NCBI GenBank assembly: GCA_031082005.1
Contig: JAVHLR010000001.1
Span: 625,251-689,250, forward strand
Reading direction: 5' to 3'
Source: Patescibacteria group bacterium
GTDB lineage: Bacteria; Patescibacteriota; Patescibacteriia; 2-12-FULL-60-25
Length of the DNA stretch: 64,000 bases
Part shown: positions 3,628 through 10,435 of the stretch, one piece after another
Layout: the number at the start of each line of letters is the position of its first letter
Numbering within the stretch: the stretch's first letter is position 1
Notes under the pieces: generated by a model
The model's database searches: none
Told to the model about the DNA's origin: nothing
Seen by the model: the letters and a program-made list of their open reading frames with translations, nothing else
Translations under genes and position numbers: made by a program

Positions 3628-5772
3628 CTAGTCTTGCCTAAGGGGAAGCATGTTCCCCCTATAGCATTCTCTGACCAACCGCGCATACCGCTCTGGTCCG
3701 TAAGCGTAAATTTGATCATCTAGGCTTGGAATGTTTCGACTGCGTGTTTCGTTCCGTCCCACCGCAGCAAGCCCTTTCGATTTTTGATCTCCGTGTATCG
3801 AACGGATGCGCTTGTTGCTGGTCTCTCTTTGCCCGAGGATATCAATCCTTTGCCGGATCTTCAGAAAACCGTCTGACTCGATATTTCTGATGCGTTCTCT
3901 GCTTAGTCCGTAGTGCGCCCCTATCTGTTCAAGCGTCTGTTCCGGCTCATCGTCTAAGCCGCAACGCCAACAGATGACGCGCTGTTCGATCGGAGGGATG
4001 GTCTCCATGATCTCTCGGATTTTTCCGTAGATGATGCTGTATTCCAGTAGCTCTTCGTATTCCGGGCGTCCATCCTTCTGTTCGAGCCAGAGTTGGTATG
4101 TCTCCGCGTCTATCGGCTGGTCCCGCAACGTGTACTCGTCCTTGTATCCGTTGTGACGGAGCAAGAATCTAAGCGTCGCGCCTTCGGGAAATGTCTCGCT
4201 TAGCAGCCTGATGTACCCGTGGGTCGATGGTTGGTATCCGAGATAGCGCAGTAGCTGGAAACCTCGACCCTGGAAGAGCTCGTGCCTGAACATGACCCAG
4301 CGGAAATGGGTGTATTTCGGTGGAAGAGCTGGATTGAACTCTGGATTCGATATCAGGACCTGCCTAATCGACGCGAAATCGCTCTTCTCGAGCCTGTGCT
4401 GCTCTTGCGTCTGAGTAAACAGGATTCTGGACTTGAGATCTACATCCTTGATTGGGGTCCTACTTAGCCTGTCAGCGGCAGCATCCTGACTTTTGCTGGA
4501 TTTGCAGCTAGTCCCGATCAGCTCTCCAGCCCTGTAACTCGTAAGCGATGAGCCGAAAAGTTCGAGAGGTAAAAGCGGCATGACGGGCAGATCCTTGGGC
4601 ACGAACGCGATAATCCGTGCCTCATTGTCGCCGTCCCTGGTCAGCGGCCGGCTGAACTTCTGTGTCGCCAAGACACGTGAGAGCGTCATCGCCAGATCGA
4701 TCAACAGCTTGCACCGAGGCGAATTCCATCCCTGGACCAGTACTTTGACGCTTACAATCGTGTCGACCTCGCGTGCCTCAAAGGCATCGAGTATCTCGGT
4801 TCGCTCTCTTTCTGGAGTTGTGCCAAGAACGAGGCACGGCGGCTTTGTACCTTTTGGGCGATGTGCTTTGAGATAGCCGCATAGCTCCTTTGCTTGCTGG
4901 CGAGTGGTACAGCAGACCAGCGCCCCCAGACTTCTGTTCTGAGTGGCATATCTGAACATCTCGACTGCCTTGAAGAAGGGCGCTTCAGAGGTGATGCGCG
5001 CCACGTCTTCATCGACGAAGTCGCCGCAATGGAGGCGGACGGCTGATCCATTCACGTCCACCTCGCCGAGCCAGAAACGGTAAGGGGCCAGAAGATCCAT
5101 ATCAATCGCCTCGTCGAAGGTGATTTCGTGGATGAGATCTGGGAAGAATTTTGCGAGTGCCTTGTCTTCCGAATAGTCCGGCGTGGCCGTCAGTGCAATC
5201 CGTACAGCCTGTGATTCAAACGCCGAAAGGAGAACTTCTTGCCTCCCTCGCGTCATCGTCTGGTGTCCCTCGTCAGCGATGACGAGTGCAGAATTACGAA
5301 TGGCTTCAGGCACAGTATTGGTCTTCATGTGCGCCTGTAGGATGGCATAGGTCACGACATTGACGCCGTTCTCCAATACCTCCTTGCGGTCGCCATAGAA
5401 CATTCCGATCGGGATGTTTCCCAGCCATGTCCGCAGCTCATTTACCGTCTGCTCAATCAACATGCGCGAAGGTACGATGATCGTCGCGGTCAGCCCTGTC
5501 CCCAGGATCATATGCGCTGCGATGACGGTTTTACCTGTTCTGGGTGGCTGAATGATTCGCGCCATAGGTGAGCCGTCGGGGGGCTCGTCGCTAGTGACGA
5601 GATCCCTAAGGTAATCAAGGAAATCGCCATACACAGACCTTTGGTCCGTGCGGAGCTGCTGATCGATTCGGGTTGATCTATTGCTGTCCCAGGACTTCTT
5701 CGCCCGGGAGGCACCCATCGCAAGCCTGTCGATCATGGGAAGATGAATCGAATCGCTTTCGAGCGGCTTCAT
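3628..5772 (-). CDS. SF2 (DEAD/DEAH, ResIII-like) helicase with C-terminal sigma-70 region 4-like domain
   Basis: 714 residues from the ATG at 5772, chosen because GAGGAGCAAAC precedes it; a longer frame to 5844 lacks this site. Motif I is PPRTGKTVIAAHMI, motif II DEGH, motif III ALTATP, and motif VI is Q(K)FSRPLTR, so two RecA-like domains are intact (about 50-440). A middle region of unknown fold follows. Near residues 610-670 the run TLEQIGAHYGLSRERIRNIE matches sigma-70 region 4 (helix-turn-helix with RERIRxIE). Nuclease or methylase motifs are not seen. Last gene of a four-gene minus-strand block. Possible roles include DNA repair, phage defence or remodelling of transcription complexes; none is demonstrated. 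Confidence 0.8.
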   Translation of the reverse strand: MKPLESDSIHLPMIDRLAMGASRAKKSWDSNRSTRIDQQLRTDQRSVYGDFLDYLRDLVTSDEPPDGSPMARIIQPPRTGKTVIAAHMILGTGLTATIIVPSRMLIEQTVNELRTWLGNIPIGMFYGDRKEVLENGVNVVTYAILQAHMKTNTVPEAIRNSALVIADEGHQTMTRGRQEVLLSAFESQAVRIALTATPDYSEDKALAKFFPDLIHEITFDEAIDMDLLAPYRFWLGEVDVNGSAVRLHCGDFVDEDVARITSEAPFFKAVEMFRYATQNRSLGALVCCTTRQQAKELCGYLKAHRPKGTKPPCLVLGTTPERERTEILDAFEAREVDTIVSVKVLVQGWNSPRCKLLIDLAMTLSRVLATQKFSRPLTRDGDNEARIIAFVPKDLPVMPLLPLELFGSSLTSYRAGELIGTSCKSSKSQDAAADRLSRTPIKDVDLKSRILFTQTQEQHRLEKSDFASIRQVLISNPEFNPALPPKYTHFRWVMFRHELFQGRGFQLLRYLGYQPSTHGYIRLLSETFPEGATLRFLLRHNGYKDEYTLRDQPIDAETYQLWLEQKDGRPEYEELLEYSIIYGKIREIMETIPPIEQRVICWRCGLDDEPEQTLEQIGAHYGLSRERIRNIESDGFLKIRQRIDILGQRETSNKRIRSIHGDQKSKGLAAVGRNETRSRNIPSLDDQIYAYGPERYARLVRECYRGNMLPLRQD

Positions 5773-5863
5773 GTTTGCTCCTCGGGTTGGGGTTGAAGTA
5801 AAAAGAGCATCAATCCTCTTATCACTGTATTGTCGAAAAATCAAGGGTCGCTATTTTGATCAT

Positions 5864-6649
5864 CTAGCCTGTAATCAGCGGAAAAGTATTTGTCGAAAAT
5901 GCTGCAAATTTATGCGTTTGTATAATTTTCGAGGCTTCAATTGACTCTGATTTTGTTTTATCAGCCCTATTTAGCGTCTCTCTTGCAAGGATTAATGAAG
6001 AATCGAGATAAGGGACTTCACCATTGTCTAGAGCCATCGCAATTTCAGTGCAACCTAAAATGACACATTGAGCACCATTATTGACCAAAGATTCTGCCGC
6101 ATGTTCAAGAAGAACTCTTCCGGTGAATATGTTGCCCGCTTTTATGCCCATCGGCCCGTAAATCGCATCCATAACAAAACTCTTCTGCTCGTCGAGACTC
6201 GGATAAATTGTGGTTAGTCCTCTCTTTTCCAAGGCTGCTTCGAACGTGCCGCTCATACGAGTGCCGTCAGTACACAGAACCCCAACGTGCTGCATCCGAA
6301 GCCTTTCAATCACCGAAACCGTCGCGTCAATCATGTCCACGAATTCGACTTCTTTTACTGTGCGTTTCAGCTCAGGCAAAAAAGCGTGCGCAGTATTGCA
6401 TGGCATGCAGATTAATTCTACGCCGGCATTCTTGAGCTTTTCTGCATTCTCAACTAGCCTCGGCAACGGGCTCTCACCTGTTCCTATGAGTGCATCTGTT
6501 CGGTCGGGAATGCTCGGATCGTTAAAAGAGATTATTGTCGGATAATCTTGATCAGATTTTGCTACGACCAATGAGAGTAGCTTGTGTTCGAAATCCAAGG
6601 TCGCAAGAGGCCCCATCCCACCAAGGATTCCGATAGTTTTGTATTTCAT
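5864..6649 (-). CDS. aspartate/glutamate racemase family protein
   Basis: 261 residues. Cofactor-independent racemases interconvert L- and D-Asp or Glu by a two-base mechanism with paired cysteines. Seen: the N-terminal IGILGGMGPLAT signature, the first catalytic Cys in CMPCNTAH and the second in ILGCTEI. The GMGP and CNTAH forms fit the Asp/hydantoin racemase branch (COG1794) better than MurI, but substrate is unproven. ATG overlaps the stop of the upstream P1-peptidase gene (ATGA, 6646-6649), so the two are translationally coupled. Could supply D-amino acids to the wall or to the neighbouring ATP-grasp enzyme (inference). Confidence 0.88.
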   Translation of the reverse strand: MKYKTIGILGGMGPLATLDFEHKLLSLVVAKSDQDYPTIISFNDPSIPDRTDALIGTGESPLPRLVENAEKLKNAGVELICMPCNTAHAFLPELKRTVKEVEFVDMIDATVSVIERLRMQHVGVLCTDGTRMSGTFEAALEKRGLTTIYPSLDEQKSFVMDAIYGPMGIKAGNIFTGRVLLEHAAESLVNNGAQCVILGCTEIAMALDNGEVPYLDSSLILARETLNRADKTKSESIEASKIIQTHKFAAFSTNTFPLITG

Positions 6650-7710
6650 TTTAGTCTTGATTCAAGTAAATCGACTACTTTATCAATCGGCAATTCTTCC
6701 AAAACTTGTCCGTCTCTACCTTTAGTCGTTTTGGCTACAAACAATGCATCATAAACTGATTCTTCAACCGTTTCGACTGCAGCAAGGAAAAATTGGGTTA
6801 GTTCATTGTCATCCAGACAGGTACCTTGCTGGTCTGAACCCTCGACCCCATTTCGGCTAGTCGAGAAAGCTACTGCGTAATCCCCACTCCCGTGAGCCAT
6901 GACAGAGCCGGTTCTCGCCAGCCCCAAGAAAGCGCGGCTGGCAATGCGTTTAAGTTGGCGTGCCGTGAGTGGCGCATCGGTCGCCAGGACTATCATGCAC
7001 GAACCGTCTGGCTTTATTTCTGGCAACGGAAGGTCGCTTTTTCCTAACGCCCTTCCCACGGGAACGCCTAAAATCATCAATTCACCGCCGAAATTGGTCT
7101 GGAGTAGAGCGCCAAACGTGTATTCGCAGTCTGTGACTTTCACTCGCCTAGAGGCTGTCCCGATTCCGCCTTTCCATGAAAAAGCCCTTGTACCTGTCCC
7201 AGCTCCAACGCAGCCAAGGGGGAAGTCTTTTGCGGTATTCTGGGCGGCTTCAACCACATGTTCAGATTTAATTACGTCCGCATGAATACGGTTAACTCTA
7301 CCGTCATTTGTCTCGCCGACTACGCCGTTTACGGTCTCGAACTCCTCCATGCCTGGATTTCTCGCCAGGGTCAGGTCTACCAACCCTCTCAAGACCGGTC
7401 CTACGGCCAGCGTATTCGTCAAAGCAATCGGCGTTTCTAGCGTGCCCAACTCCTCGATTTGCGTTGTGCCCGTGAGTTTTCCGAAACCATTCCCTACCGC
7501 CACTGCAGCAGGCAATTTATTGCGAAATAATGCCTTTGTTCCAGGATCCACCAGAGTTACGCCGGTTCTGATGTCTTCGCCTTCGATCAAAGTCACATGT
7601 CCGACTAAAACGCCCGGGACGTCAGAGAGCACGTTCCCTTCTCCCGTCGGTAAAACTCCGGTTTCAAAGCCGTAATCGCGAAAACGTTTTTTATTTGGTG
7701 TTGTGGGCAT
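6646..7710 (-). CDS. P1 family peptidase (S58, DmpA/BapA-like aminopeptidase)
   Basis: 354 residues, normal for family S58. These self-cleaving N-terminal-nucleophile hydrolases remove N-terminal residues, including D-Ala or beta-amino acids, from small peptides. Visible: DVPGVLVGHVT at the start, the GTGTRAFSWKGGIG block, the autocleavage/nucleophile site PDGS followed by CMIVLATDAPL (Gly-Ser bond), and HGSGDYAVAFST near the end. All expected core motifs are present, so it should be active. No signal peptide, so cytoplasmic. Coupled by 4 bases to the Asp/Glu racemase and 105 bases after the ATP-grasp-like gene. Together they suggest metabolism of peptides with unusual amino acids (inference). 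Confidence 0.88.
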   Translation of the reverse strand: MPTTPNKKRFRDYGFETGVLPTGEGNVLSDVPGVLVGHVTLIEGEDIRTGVTLVDPGTKALFRNKLPAAVAVGNGFGKLTGTTQIEELGTLETPIALTNTLAVGPVLRGLVDLTLARNPGMEEFETVNGVVGETNDGRVNRIHADVIKSEHVVEAAQNTAKDFPLGCVGAGTGTRAFSWKGGIGTASRRVKVTDCEYTFGALLQTNFGGELMILGVPVGRALGKSDLPLPEIKPDGSCMIVLATDAPLTARQLKRIASRAFLGLARTGSVMAHGSGDYAVAFSTSRNGVEGSDQQGTCLDDNELTQFFLAAVETVEESVYDALFVAKTTKGRDGQVLEELPIDKVVDLLESRLK

Positions 7711-7815
7711 ATTTGATTCATTCCAGGATCTGACAGCTTATCGGATCCTCGAGGGAATCCGGGTGCCTACAAGAAGGCAGACACCCGATTGGATGGAGTT
7801 GAAAGAACGTGTGAA

Positions 7816-9639
7816 CTAGACGTATTCCACGGGTTGGACGGCCATATCCGTCATTCCGTGGATTTTTGTCGTGTAGGAGGGAGTGCAACAGTTGTGGCTC
7901 GAGATGAGTCGCCCGCCGACGACCCAGGGGCGCAGCAGTACGCGACAACGAAAGACTTCCGCGGCCTTCATACTCGTGTTCCAGACGCCGAGGGTTTCGA
8001 TTGACGTCTCGAAGCGCTGTTGTACGATGAAAGGCTCGTTCGACTTGATCCGGTCGAGGAGCCAAGCGCGCCAGTCTTGCTCGTTGCGTGCGTGACCCAT
8101 GAATACGCCGTAGGACCGAGCTGATTGGCGGTTTGCTCCGGTAATCTTGAGGACCAACTTGTCGCGACCTTCGATATCCAGGCTGATCAGGTCTTCGAGC
8201 ATGCGGATGCGCTTGCCTGCAACGGTGAACGGGAAGTCGTTTCGCTCGAACGCGACGAGGTGAGACTGCGGAATCATAGAATGGATGATCTCGATATCCT
8301 CGGCCGTCAGCCGTTCGGCGAAGAATTCCTCGTAACGCCAGAACAAGCTGAACCAAGTCTTGCTGCCGTAGTGGGCAAACTCCGGCACCATACGTACGAG
8401 ACCATCTTGGGCGGCGAACACCAGCTCTGCCAACTTGCCGGTCGTCTCGAACACCGGGAACTGCCGCCAGATTGTGCCGACCTTGTGCCCGTCGAGGAAG
8501 ACTCCGTCTTTACGTATCTCTACGCGATCCAGCTCCGAAGTGGTGACCATGTGGGCTGCAAAGCCACGCCTGCGCATCTCTTCGGCCAACCACTTGGTGA
8601 CCGTGATGTAGGGGGCGCTCCAGTCGTCGGAAACGACGAAAAGCAGGGAGCCTTCCGACGTCAGCCAGTCGAAGCACCACGTCCAGGCTTCCTGATTGAT
8701 GTCGTATGCCATATCCACATGGGCAAGGTCGGCGAAACCACCGGGCATCTCGTCATTCTCGGACGCGATGAGATGGCGTTCGTTGACGTGCATGTCCGGC
8801 CGACGGACTGACCATTCGCTGATGCGTGTCTCTCCGTTACGTGGTTGCAGGTAGCAATCACGCAGACGAGGCAGGCTCGCATCCAGCTCTACCCCCACCA
8901 GGAGCTCTTCCTGGACGGCAGGATTGCTGTCCACGAGGTCTTGGCAGGCGCGCTCGAACGCCGCAAAGGTATCGAGCGTCTTCTGCATGACCGCCTTGGG
9001 ATACTCTGCGACATCGATCGGAACTCGAATCCAGCTGATCCGGCTGTCTTTGGGCAGGACGTGTCCATGACCGGCGTTGACCGCTCCTTCAGCCAGATCC
9101 GGACCTTGGTTCAGCCGCTCGATGAGCTGCGGAGCATGTTCGGGTAACTTGATGCGCGTCGGTGCAGGCTCTGCCTTTTTGCGCTGTCCCCAAGGGAACG
9201 CACCCTGGTCGAGATTCGGCTCGAACCGCCGTGTGAAGTTAGCGCGCAACTGTTCTGCACAGCTGCGTGTGCGCTGCCTAAGCGTCACAGGCTCGCCGAT
9301 AGCAACGCCCCAAACGGTCCGCTGCGCCCAGTCTGGAACCGGGATGTGATTCTGTCGCCCACGCGCCACATACTTGAAATGGCCGCGGATAGAGGTGGCA
9401 TCGAAGAGTGCGATCGCCTCGTCATGGTTGTGTCCATTCGACAGCACGGCGTCTGCTTCTTGCTGGCTCGCGAAAACCCTGAATTCACACCCCTGCCAGG
9501 CCACATCCGGGTCTTTTTCCAGGACCTTCGAGGCTTCGATGACCTCGATGCTCCGTGGATTCTGGATTTCCGGTGAGTTGATGGTGTAGACCAAGCGGGG
9601 TCGCTTGAAAACGATAGCGTCGATGTGCGTCTTCAGCAT
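7816..9639 (-). CDS. putative ATP-grasp-like enzyme (circularly permuted, glutathionylspermidine-synthase-like)
   Basis: 607 residues; ATG at 9639 preceded by GAGAGGACGAA. No exact family is recognised with certainty. The middle (about 320-430) has SDDWSAPYITVTKWLAEEM and then DGHKVGTIWRQFPV, resembling the pre-ATP-grasp part of glutathionylspermidine-synthase-like proteins (VxxDG..ID.IYRR). The C-terminal third has KLVLKITGANRQSARSYG, then EQDWRAWL and PFIVQQRFE, then GGRLISSHN, the pattern of ATP-grasp lysine, adenine-binding hinge and phosphate/Mg strands. If so it would join a carboxylate to an amine with ATP. First gene of the block with the peptidase and racemase. Base composition appears GC-richer than many neighbours. 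Confidence 0.5.
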   Translation of the reverse strand: MLKTHIDAIVFKRPRLVYTINSPEIQNPRSIEVIEASKVLEKDPDVAWQGCEFRVFASQQEADAVLSNGHNHDEAIALFDATSIRGHFKYVARGRQNHIPVPDWAQRTVWGVAIGEPVTLRQRTRSCAEQLRANFTRRFEPNLDQGAFPWGQRKKAEPAPTRIKLPEHAPQLIERLNQGPDLAEGAVNAGHGHVLPKDSRISWIRVPIDVAEYPKAVMQKTLDTFAAFERACQDLVDSNPAVQEELLVGVELDASLPRLRDCYLQPRNGETRISEWSVRRPDMHVNERHLIASENDEMPGGFADLAHVDMAYDINQEAWTWCFDWLTSEGSLLFVVSDDWSAPYITVTKWLAEEMRRRGFAAHMVTTSELDRVEIRKDGVFLDGHKVGTIWRQFPVFETTGKLAELVFAAQDGLVRMVPEFAHYGSKTWFSLFWRYEEFFAERLTAEDIEIIHSMIPQSHLVAFERNDFPFTVAGKRIRMLEDLISLDIEGRDKLVLKITGANRQSARSYGVFMGHARNEQDWRAWLLDRIKSNEPFIVQQRFETSIETLGVWNTSMKAAEVFRCRVLLRPWVVGGRLISSHNCCTPSYTTKIHGMTDMAVQPVEYV

Positions 9640-9967: not shown

Positions 9968-10435
9968 CTATGCAGTAGCTTCCTGTGGCAGAATAGCCAT
10001 CATCCAGTGATTAACTTCAACGCCTCTAGCACTATCGAAATCATGCCAAACTTCATTAAAATCGGTGATTTTCATTGCGACTTTTCCGCCCTCTTCTTCT
10101 GGATCCATCAGATAGATATTCTCTTTATCAATACCATATGCGACTGAATAGTGGTTTTCGTCGGTCGACCACCAACCGACGATAACGGGCGTGCTTTGCT
10201 GGATGAAGCGACTTAGTTCTTCGAGCGTCGCATTTTCTTTTTCGATTACGCTGAAGCCGAGCTTTTTTGCGCCCTTGATGAGGCCGCGGTGGCTTGTGCC
10301 CTTGTCTATGGTGCTGTCGCACAGCGCCGCCAGTTCTTCCTCGGAAAAATCCTTTCCGTAATGAGCCAGCATGATCTTAAGGCTTGCTGGGCCGCACATG
10401 GCTTCTGATTGGAAAAAGGGATTCAACTCGATCAT
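9968..10435 (-). CDS. C39-like cysteine peptidase domain protein
   Basis: 155 residues, made almost entirely of a papain-like C39 fold. Motifs: CGPASLKIMLAHYG with the putative nucleophile Cys14, then HYSVAYGID (catalytic His) and IYLMDP (Asp), the usual Cys-His-Asp order. An early Gln (FFQSEAMCGP) could serve as the oxyanion residue. No signal peptide or transporter domain is attached, unlike bacteriocin-processing C39 peptidases. Starts just after the wecG stop, so it is the last gene of the long ATP-synthase operon. Substrate unknown. Confidence 0.75.
   Translation of the reverse strand: MIELNPFFQSEAMCGPASLKIMLAHYGKDFSEEELAALCDSTIDKGTSHRGLIKGAKKLGFSVIEKENATLEELSRFIQQSTPVIVGWWSTDENHYSVAYGIDKENIYLMDPEEEGGKVAMKITDFNEVWHDFDSARGVEVNHWMMAILPQEATA

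Follow-up and report, generated by a model that had tools for sequence, protein, structure and literature searches.

A conserved accessory cassette encoding a predicted ATP-grasp ligase, an S58-type peptidase and an aspartate-type racemase in Patescibacteria

The window analyzed here is a 64,000-nucleotide stretch (contig JAVHLR010000001.1, positions 625,251 to 689,250) of a patescibacterial genome of 1.3 Mb; sampled relatives have genomes of about 0.7 to 1.6 Mb. On its minus strand lie, in this order, genes for a predicted ATP-grasp ligase, an S58 (DmpA/BapA-type) peptidase and an Asp/Glu-family racemase. The cassette has the following features, in window coordinates:

7816-9639, minus strand: ligase gene, 607 aa (open reading frame [ORF] call, fold search, orthologues)
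7760-7787, minus strand: hairpin with an 11-bp stem in the gap between ligase and S58 genes (z of -5.1 versus dinucleotide shuffles)
6646-7710, minus strand: S58 (DmpA/BapA-type) peptidase gene, 354 aa (ORF and Pfam)
6646-6649, minus strand: ATGA overlap of 4 nt between the S58 stop and the racemase start (reads TCAT on the plus strand)
5864-6649, minus strand: Asp/Glu-family racemase gene, 261 aa (ORF and Pfam)

A preliminary description of this DNA had proposed a set of ligase, peptidase and racemase in which the last two are coupled by ATGA. All three ORFs are present as it described, Pfam and the fold search agree with the assignments, and the 4-nt overlap was confirmed.

The three-gene arrangement is not due to chance. 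The order ligase-S58-racemase of the window genome (G000) recurs in three other genomes, namely, a sister species of the same genus (G003), a member of another family (G093) and a member of another class (G489), and is thus common to three families and two classes. G003, the only other species of the genus with the cassette, has the same ATGA overlap, and its proteins are 74 to 80% identical to those of G000. The overlap is also found in G093, while G489 has an 8-nt gap at this junction. Protein identity across classes falls to 42% with gene order kept, and the flanks of the G093 and G489 cassettes are unrelated to those within the genus. In a fifth genome, G351, the ligase gene is split across two contig ends and the racemase gene directly follows its C-terminal end. 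The preliminary description had tied its proposal to orthologues sharing this neighborhood; three of the four neighborhoods are complete, and the fourth lacks the peptidase only. Since G351 keeps ligase and racemase without S58, these two appear to form the core of the cassette.

Among the 380 genomes of the class sample, the ligase was found in 4 and a clear S58 gene in 3, all of which are ligase carriers. The probability of this co-occurrence by chance is about 4e-7, or about 4e-5 when the two sisters are counted as one (hypergeometric). Very few of these bacteria carry S58 genes, and the racemase is present in all five ligase-bearing genomes. The cassette is accessory, since neither ligase nor S58 was found in two other sampled relatives of the genus (G001 and G002). 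Searches of plasmids, phages and viral contigs gave no matches to the ligase. Between G000 and G003, codons differ at 53 to 56% of third positions, 14 to 20% of first positions and 9 to 15% of second positions; third positions therefore differ about 3 to 6 times more, indicating purifying selection. In all four full cassettes, the GC content at third codon positions (GC3) is higher in the ligase gene (0.59 to 0.79) than in the S58 and racemase genes (0.34 to 0.68). The window values are 0.72 for the ligase gene and 0.44 to 0.48 for the other two.

The ligase matched no Pfam or NCBIfam family, including the glutathionylspermidine synthase family, and PDB sequence searches with the ligase or its profile returned nothing meaningful. 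A structural model was built from five orthologues. In this moderate-confidence model, residues 173 to 607 matched human glutathione synthetase (GSS; Foldseek E 1.2e-8) and YjfC (3e-6) with probability 1.00, within a range of 1e-8 to 1e-4; homoglutathione synthetase and YgiC were also among the matches. VIA-align gave Z scores of about 10 to 12 over 280 to 350 residues with GSS, YgiC, YjfC, GspS, trypanothione synthetase (TryS) and the E-64 ligase Cp1B. The 607-residue protein had been described as ATP-grasp-like, and the predicted fold is ATP-grasp. From the model, the ligase is predicted to be a circularly permuted ATP-grasp enzyme of the glutathione synthetase/GspS/YgiC/YjfC fold with an extra N-terminal domain. 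The regions and residues concerned are as follows:

7819-9123, minus strand: C-terminal ATP-grasp region, residues 173-607 (Foldseek and VIA-align)
8752-8802, minus strand: R280-x-D282 ... E294-x-D296, at the positions of E. coli GspS R316, D318, E330 and N332
8359-8361, minus strand: K427, at the position of GspS K498
8146-8148, minus strand: K498 (LVLKITGAN), proposed counterpart of GspS K533 by motif; the local alignment is poor
9220-9603, minus strand: N-terminal domain, residues 13-140, with a putative peptidyl-tRNA-hydrolase-like fold (separate model, fold search)

In a MAFFT alignment with E. coli GspS, YgiC and YjfC, ligase residues R280, D282, E294, K427 and Q540 fall on invariant residues, and the position of GspS N332 is occupied by Asp (D296). 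The GspS numbering (R316, D318, E330, N332, K498 and K533) was verified against the GspS sequence. These six are the Mg/ATP residues of GspS, K498 being its ATP lysine. The earlier hint at polyamines fits this fold, given that the solved structures nearest to the model include YgiC, YjfC, GspS and trypanothione synthetase. The first two ligate peptides to spermidine, and Cp1B couples an amino acid with a diacid (PMC12568646), so that the GSS/GspS/YgiC group forms amides between amines and small acids. A 442-aa ATP-grasp-like ORF at another locus (L019) was rejected as a relative of the ligase; it gave a weak tblastn match only, and neither a profile search nor hhalign supported it.

The N-terminal domain was modeled separately from seven sequences (predicted local distance difference test [pLDDT] of 71). 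This model matched peptidyl-tRNA hydrolase (Pth) with a Foldseek E value of 3e-4 (probability 1.00) and a VIA Z score of 9.4 (3.3 A over 119 residues). The alignment of the domain contains no invariant His, Cys, Glu or Asn, and the Asn/His motif of peptidyl-tRNA hydrolase is missing; the invariant positions are T19, S30, V33, F79, D80, P102, W104, A133, F135, P149 and W150. We infer that the most likely role of this domain is binding of the second substrate, not catalysis of hydrolysis. The domain also occurs as a stand-alone protein in G515 and G034; the stand-alone copies at L020:5773-6252 (159 aa) and L021:8322-8768 (148 aa) have no ligase nearby.

The S58 protein matches Pfam PF03576 (Peptidase_S58) over its whole chain (E 4e-105; 352 bits against a cut-off of 23.9), and its best solved match is the D-aminopeptidase PH0078 (2drh; E 1.8e-94). 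Residues G236/S237, S275, D277 and N206 are invariant in the orthologue alignment (A2), which was aligned to 2drh, 5tzb and 3n2w. Self-cleavage is predicted from these residues to occur between G236 and S237. In a relative from another family (L030, G391:C2:29000-42500, positions 4010-8302), an S58 gene lies between genes for a Ddl-like ATP-grasp protein and a PGM1-like/pre-ATP-grasp protein, with no racemase gene. The PGM1-like ligase candidate is below Pfam cut-offs, and it is followed by an AstE/AspA-type (M14-like), aspartoacylase-like enzyme. This S58-ATP-grasp operon is unrelated to the cassette and shows that pairing of an S58 hydrolase with amide ligases has arisen repeatedly. A search of the open literature found no paper on an S58-ATP-grasp operon, although a 2009 amidoligase survey may mention one.

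The racemase belongs to the Asp_Glu_race family (Pfam E 1.4e-34) and scored 177 bits against the aspartate racemase model TIGR00035 (cut-off 93.1). Its best solved match is the Pyrococcus horikoshii aspartate racemase (1jfl; E 2.9e-54). Residues C82, C194, R48 and K164 of 1jfl correspond to C84, C200, R50 and K170 and are kept in all five cassette racemases; R48 and K164 presumably have a role in aspartate racemase. All five also scored 194.6 to 214.3 bits against the cysteate racemase model NF052483 (racemase_CuyB; cut-off 190), a model that may not exclude aspartate racemases, while a second racemase of G351 reached 169 bits, below the cut-off. Among plasmids, the closest homologue lies ahead of C4-dicarboxylate transporter and aspartate ammonia-lyase genes. 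The racemase was ruled out as the cell's MurI by its score against TIGR00067 (28 bits; cut-off 146.65) and by the cassette-free sisters, which likewise lack MurI. No glutamate racemase was above the TIGR00067 cut-off in any of seven genomes (G000, G001, G002, G003, G093, G351 and G489). Since the cassette-free sisters are among these, the supply of D-Glu to the cell wall is independent of the cassette.

The gap between ligase and S58 genes measures 105 to 213 nt and, in each of the four full cassettes, contains a strong hairpin (z of -3.6 to -5.5 versus dinucleotide shuffles). The G489 hairpin precedes a run of seven T (T7) and is a textbook terminator. The stems of the two sister copies (G000 and G003) differ in four pairs, all of which are still paired, one of them having changed on both sides. 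The gap element had no match in Rfam. Within the window, positions 7711 to 7815 contain two tandem stem-loops, and the arrangement in G003 is similar. Given a hairpin in all four gaps and the contrast in ligase GC3, the ligase and the S58-racemase pair probably form two units at one location, or else a single unit with an internal brake. The preliminary description had placed all three genes in one operon. Their co-location and the coupling of S58 to racemase stand, but the conserved hairpin weakens the case for a single operon.

Gene order, protein families, ATP-grasp fold, catalytic residues, conservation and co-occurrence are supported by the computation. The module is real, conserved and accessory, and its ligase represents a new subfamily; the theme of ATP-grasp amide-ligase operons is already known. 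The ligase resembles GSS, GspS, trypanothione synthetase and YgiC/YjfC in the predicted fold of residues 173 to 607, in the R-x-D ... E-x-(N/D) motif and in the positions of the ATP lysine, Gln and Gly. It differs from that group in being only about 10 to 19% identical, in its lack of a Pfam or NCBIfam match and in its new gene neighbors, and the N-terminal CHAP amidase of GspS is unrelated to the Pth-like domain. Similarly, the S58 protein is like the DmpA/BapA/PH0078 D-aminopeptidases, and PH0078 in particular, in its full-length match and its conserved Gly-Ser and catalytic Ser/Asp residues, but its position between ligase and racemase genes is unlike that in three annotated plasmid S58 loci that were examined. 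The racemase shares both catalytic Cys and the equivalents of Arg48 and Lys164 with the TIGR00035 aspartate racemases (PhAspR) and the cysteate racemase CuyB, but is unlike them in being the third gene of a cassette. Of working systems, AslA-RacD from lactic acid bacteria offers the closest analogy. In Lactococcus lactis, the ATP-grasp D-Asp ligase AslA shares an operon with racD (PMC4155827), and the AslA/Aslfm-RacD systems likewise have an ATP-grasp ligase gene beside an aspartate racemase gene. AslA acts on peptidoglycan precursors, whereas the cassette ligase has the GSS/GspS fold and is accompanied by an S58 hydrolase.

The cassette most likely makes and recycles an Asp-containing small molecule. 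In such a scheme, the racemase would interconvert the two enantiomers of Asp, or of a similar compound such as cysteate, supplying or removing the D form. The ligase would use ATP to convert a carboxylate to an acyl-phosphate and join it to an amine, which is the chemistry of glutathione synthetase, GspS and YgiC; one of the two partners would be D-Asp or a group derived from Asp. The self-cleaved S58 enzyme would then hydrolyze the ligase product or remove its N-terminal residue, thereby recycling or limiting it. We infer the single pathway for all three enzymes, the Asp-type substrate, its D configuration and the choice of amide. The scheme would be consistent with the earlier suggestion that the locus serves to make and turn over an unusual peptide or capped amine. 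We put the chances at about even that the block is an accessory module for amide ligation and turnover, combining an Asp-type racemase, an ATP-dependent amide ligase and product hydrolysis by S58. A more specific proposal is held more tentatively: an undescribed glutathione-synthetase-type subfamily with a Pth-like substrate domain may make a D-Asp amide or peptide metabolite in ultra-small bacteria, a dedicated racemase supplying the D-Asp and a dedicated S58 enzyme breaking down the product.

Several observations weigh against this interpretation. Confidence in the whole-ligase model is moderate (pLDDT of 61, predicted template modeling score of 0.51), and comparison of the ligase with GspS, YgiC and YjfC by hhalign was not significant (E 0.4), so that sequence alone shows no relationship. 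No S58 gene was found anywhere in the G351 genome, which has ligase and racemase only. Because all five racemases exceed the cysteate racemase cut-off, Asp is not certain to be the substrate. The gap hairpin also argues against simple co-transcription of the ligase with S58 and racemase.

Other explanations were considered. The genes could serve D-amino-acid salvage, which we regard as unlikely but worth keeping in mind; the S58 enzyme would degrade scavenged peptides or amides with D-residues, the racemase would convert the D-Asp back to the L form, and the ligase would have an unrelated function or re-cap a product. S58 enzymes do include D-aminopeptidases, a plasmid DmpA gene adjoins one for D-alanine aminotransferase, and the closest plasmid racemase homologue, next to aspartate ammonia-lyase, is in a catabolic setting. 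S58 and racemase are, moreover, a tightly coupled pair (ATGA) from which the hairpin sets the ligase apart. However, every clear cassette-type S58 in the class sample is accompanied by the ligase, ligase and racemase occur without S58 in G351, and no dedicated peptide transporter adjoins the cassette. Cell wall modification, in which the ligase would add D-Asp (or D-Glu) supplied by the racemase to a peptidoglycan precursor, as AslA/Aslfm do, is less probable again. It has a precedent in the AslA-RacD operon of L. lactis (PMC4155827) and would suit the failure of all seven genomes to reach the curated glutamate racemase cut-off, but MurI is missing from the cassette-free sisters as well. Known members of the GSS/GspS fold group act on small peptides and not on Mur precursors, and no cell wall role is known for S58.

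The scores of all five cassette racemases against racemase_CuyB (195 to 214 bits, compared with 169 for the second racemase of G351) would suit a module that handles cysteate, the sulfonate analogue of Asp, for example, by making or breaking a sulfonated amide. We consider this quite improbable: the model may not separate cysteate from aspartate racemases, the nearest relative of solved structure is an aspartate racemase, and the genes around a homologue suggest Asp. Least probable of all is that the genes are chance neighbors with no shared pathway, their order having been kept by co-transfer as a block. A sporadic distribution (about 1% of genomes) and a ligase GC3 unlike that of its neighbors in all four carriers are compatible with this, but the order has survived between classes, where protein identity is down to 42% and the flanks differ, and the genes show purifying selection and strong co-occurrence.

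The biosynthetic repertoire of these reduced-genome bacteria is thought to be small. If the cassette does make and break an amide, its conservation would suggest a metabolite private to them, which might be a thiol, polyamine or D-Asp conjugate for use with the host. The three predicted soluble proteins form an enzyme set that is open to direct in vitro work.

The remaining features at the locus are these:

9762-9746, minus strand: terminator-like hairpin ahead of the ligase gene, closing the preceding unit
3628-5844: helicase gene
3512-3486, minus strand: terminator-like hairpin past the helicase gene

The two hairpins agree with the earlier proposal of two bounding terminators. The helicase gene that was said to follow is present, but it has no counterpart at this place in the sister G003 and is incidental to the cassette. 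It was rejected as a cassette part because G003 has a convergent glmS there, with a helicase homologue of 47% identity elsewhere in that genome. PADLOC gave no matches to the cassette genes, and its best matches to the helicase were weak and partial (PbeA/MzaA). Upstream of the ligase, wecG is found in both the window and G003. Beside it in the window, but missing there in G003, is a stand-alone 155-aa C39-type peptidase domain (9968-10435). The C terminus of the helicase is a sigma-70 region 4 domain, an unusual fusion.

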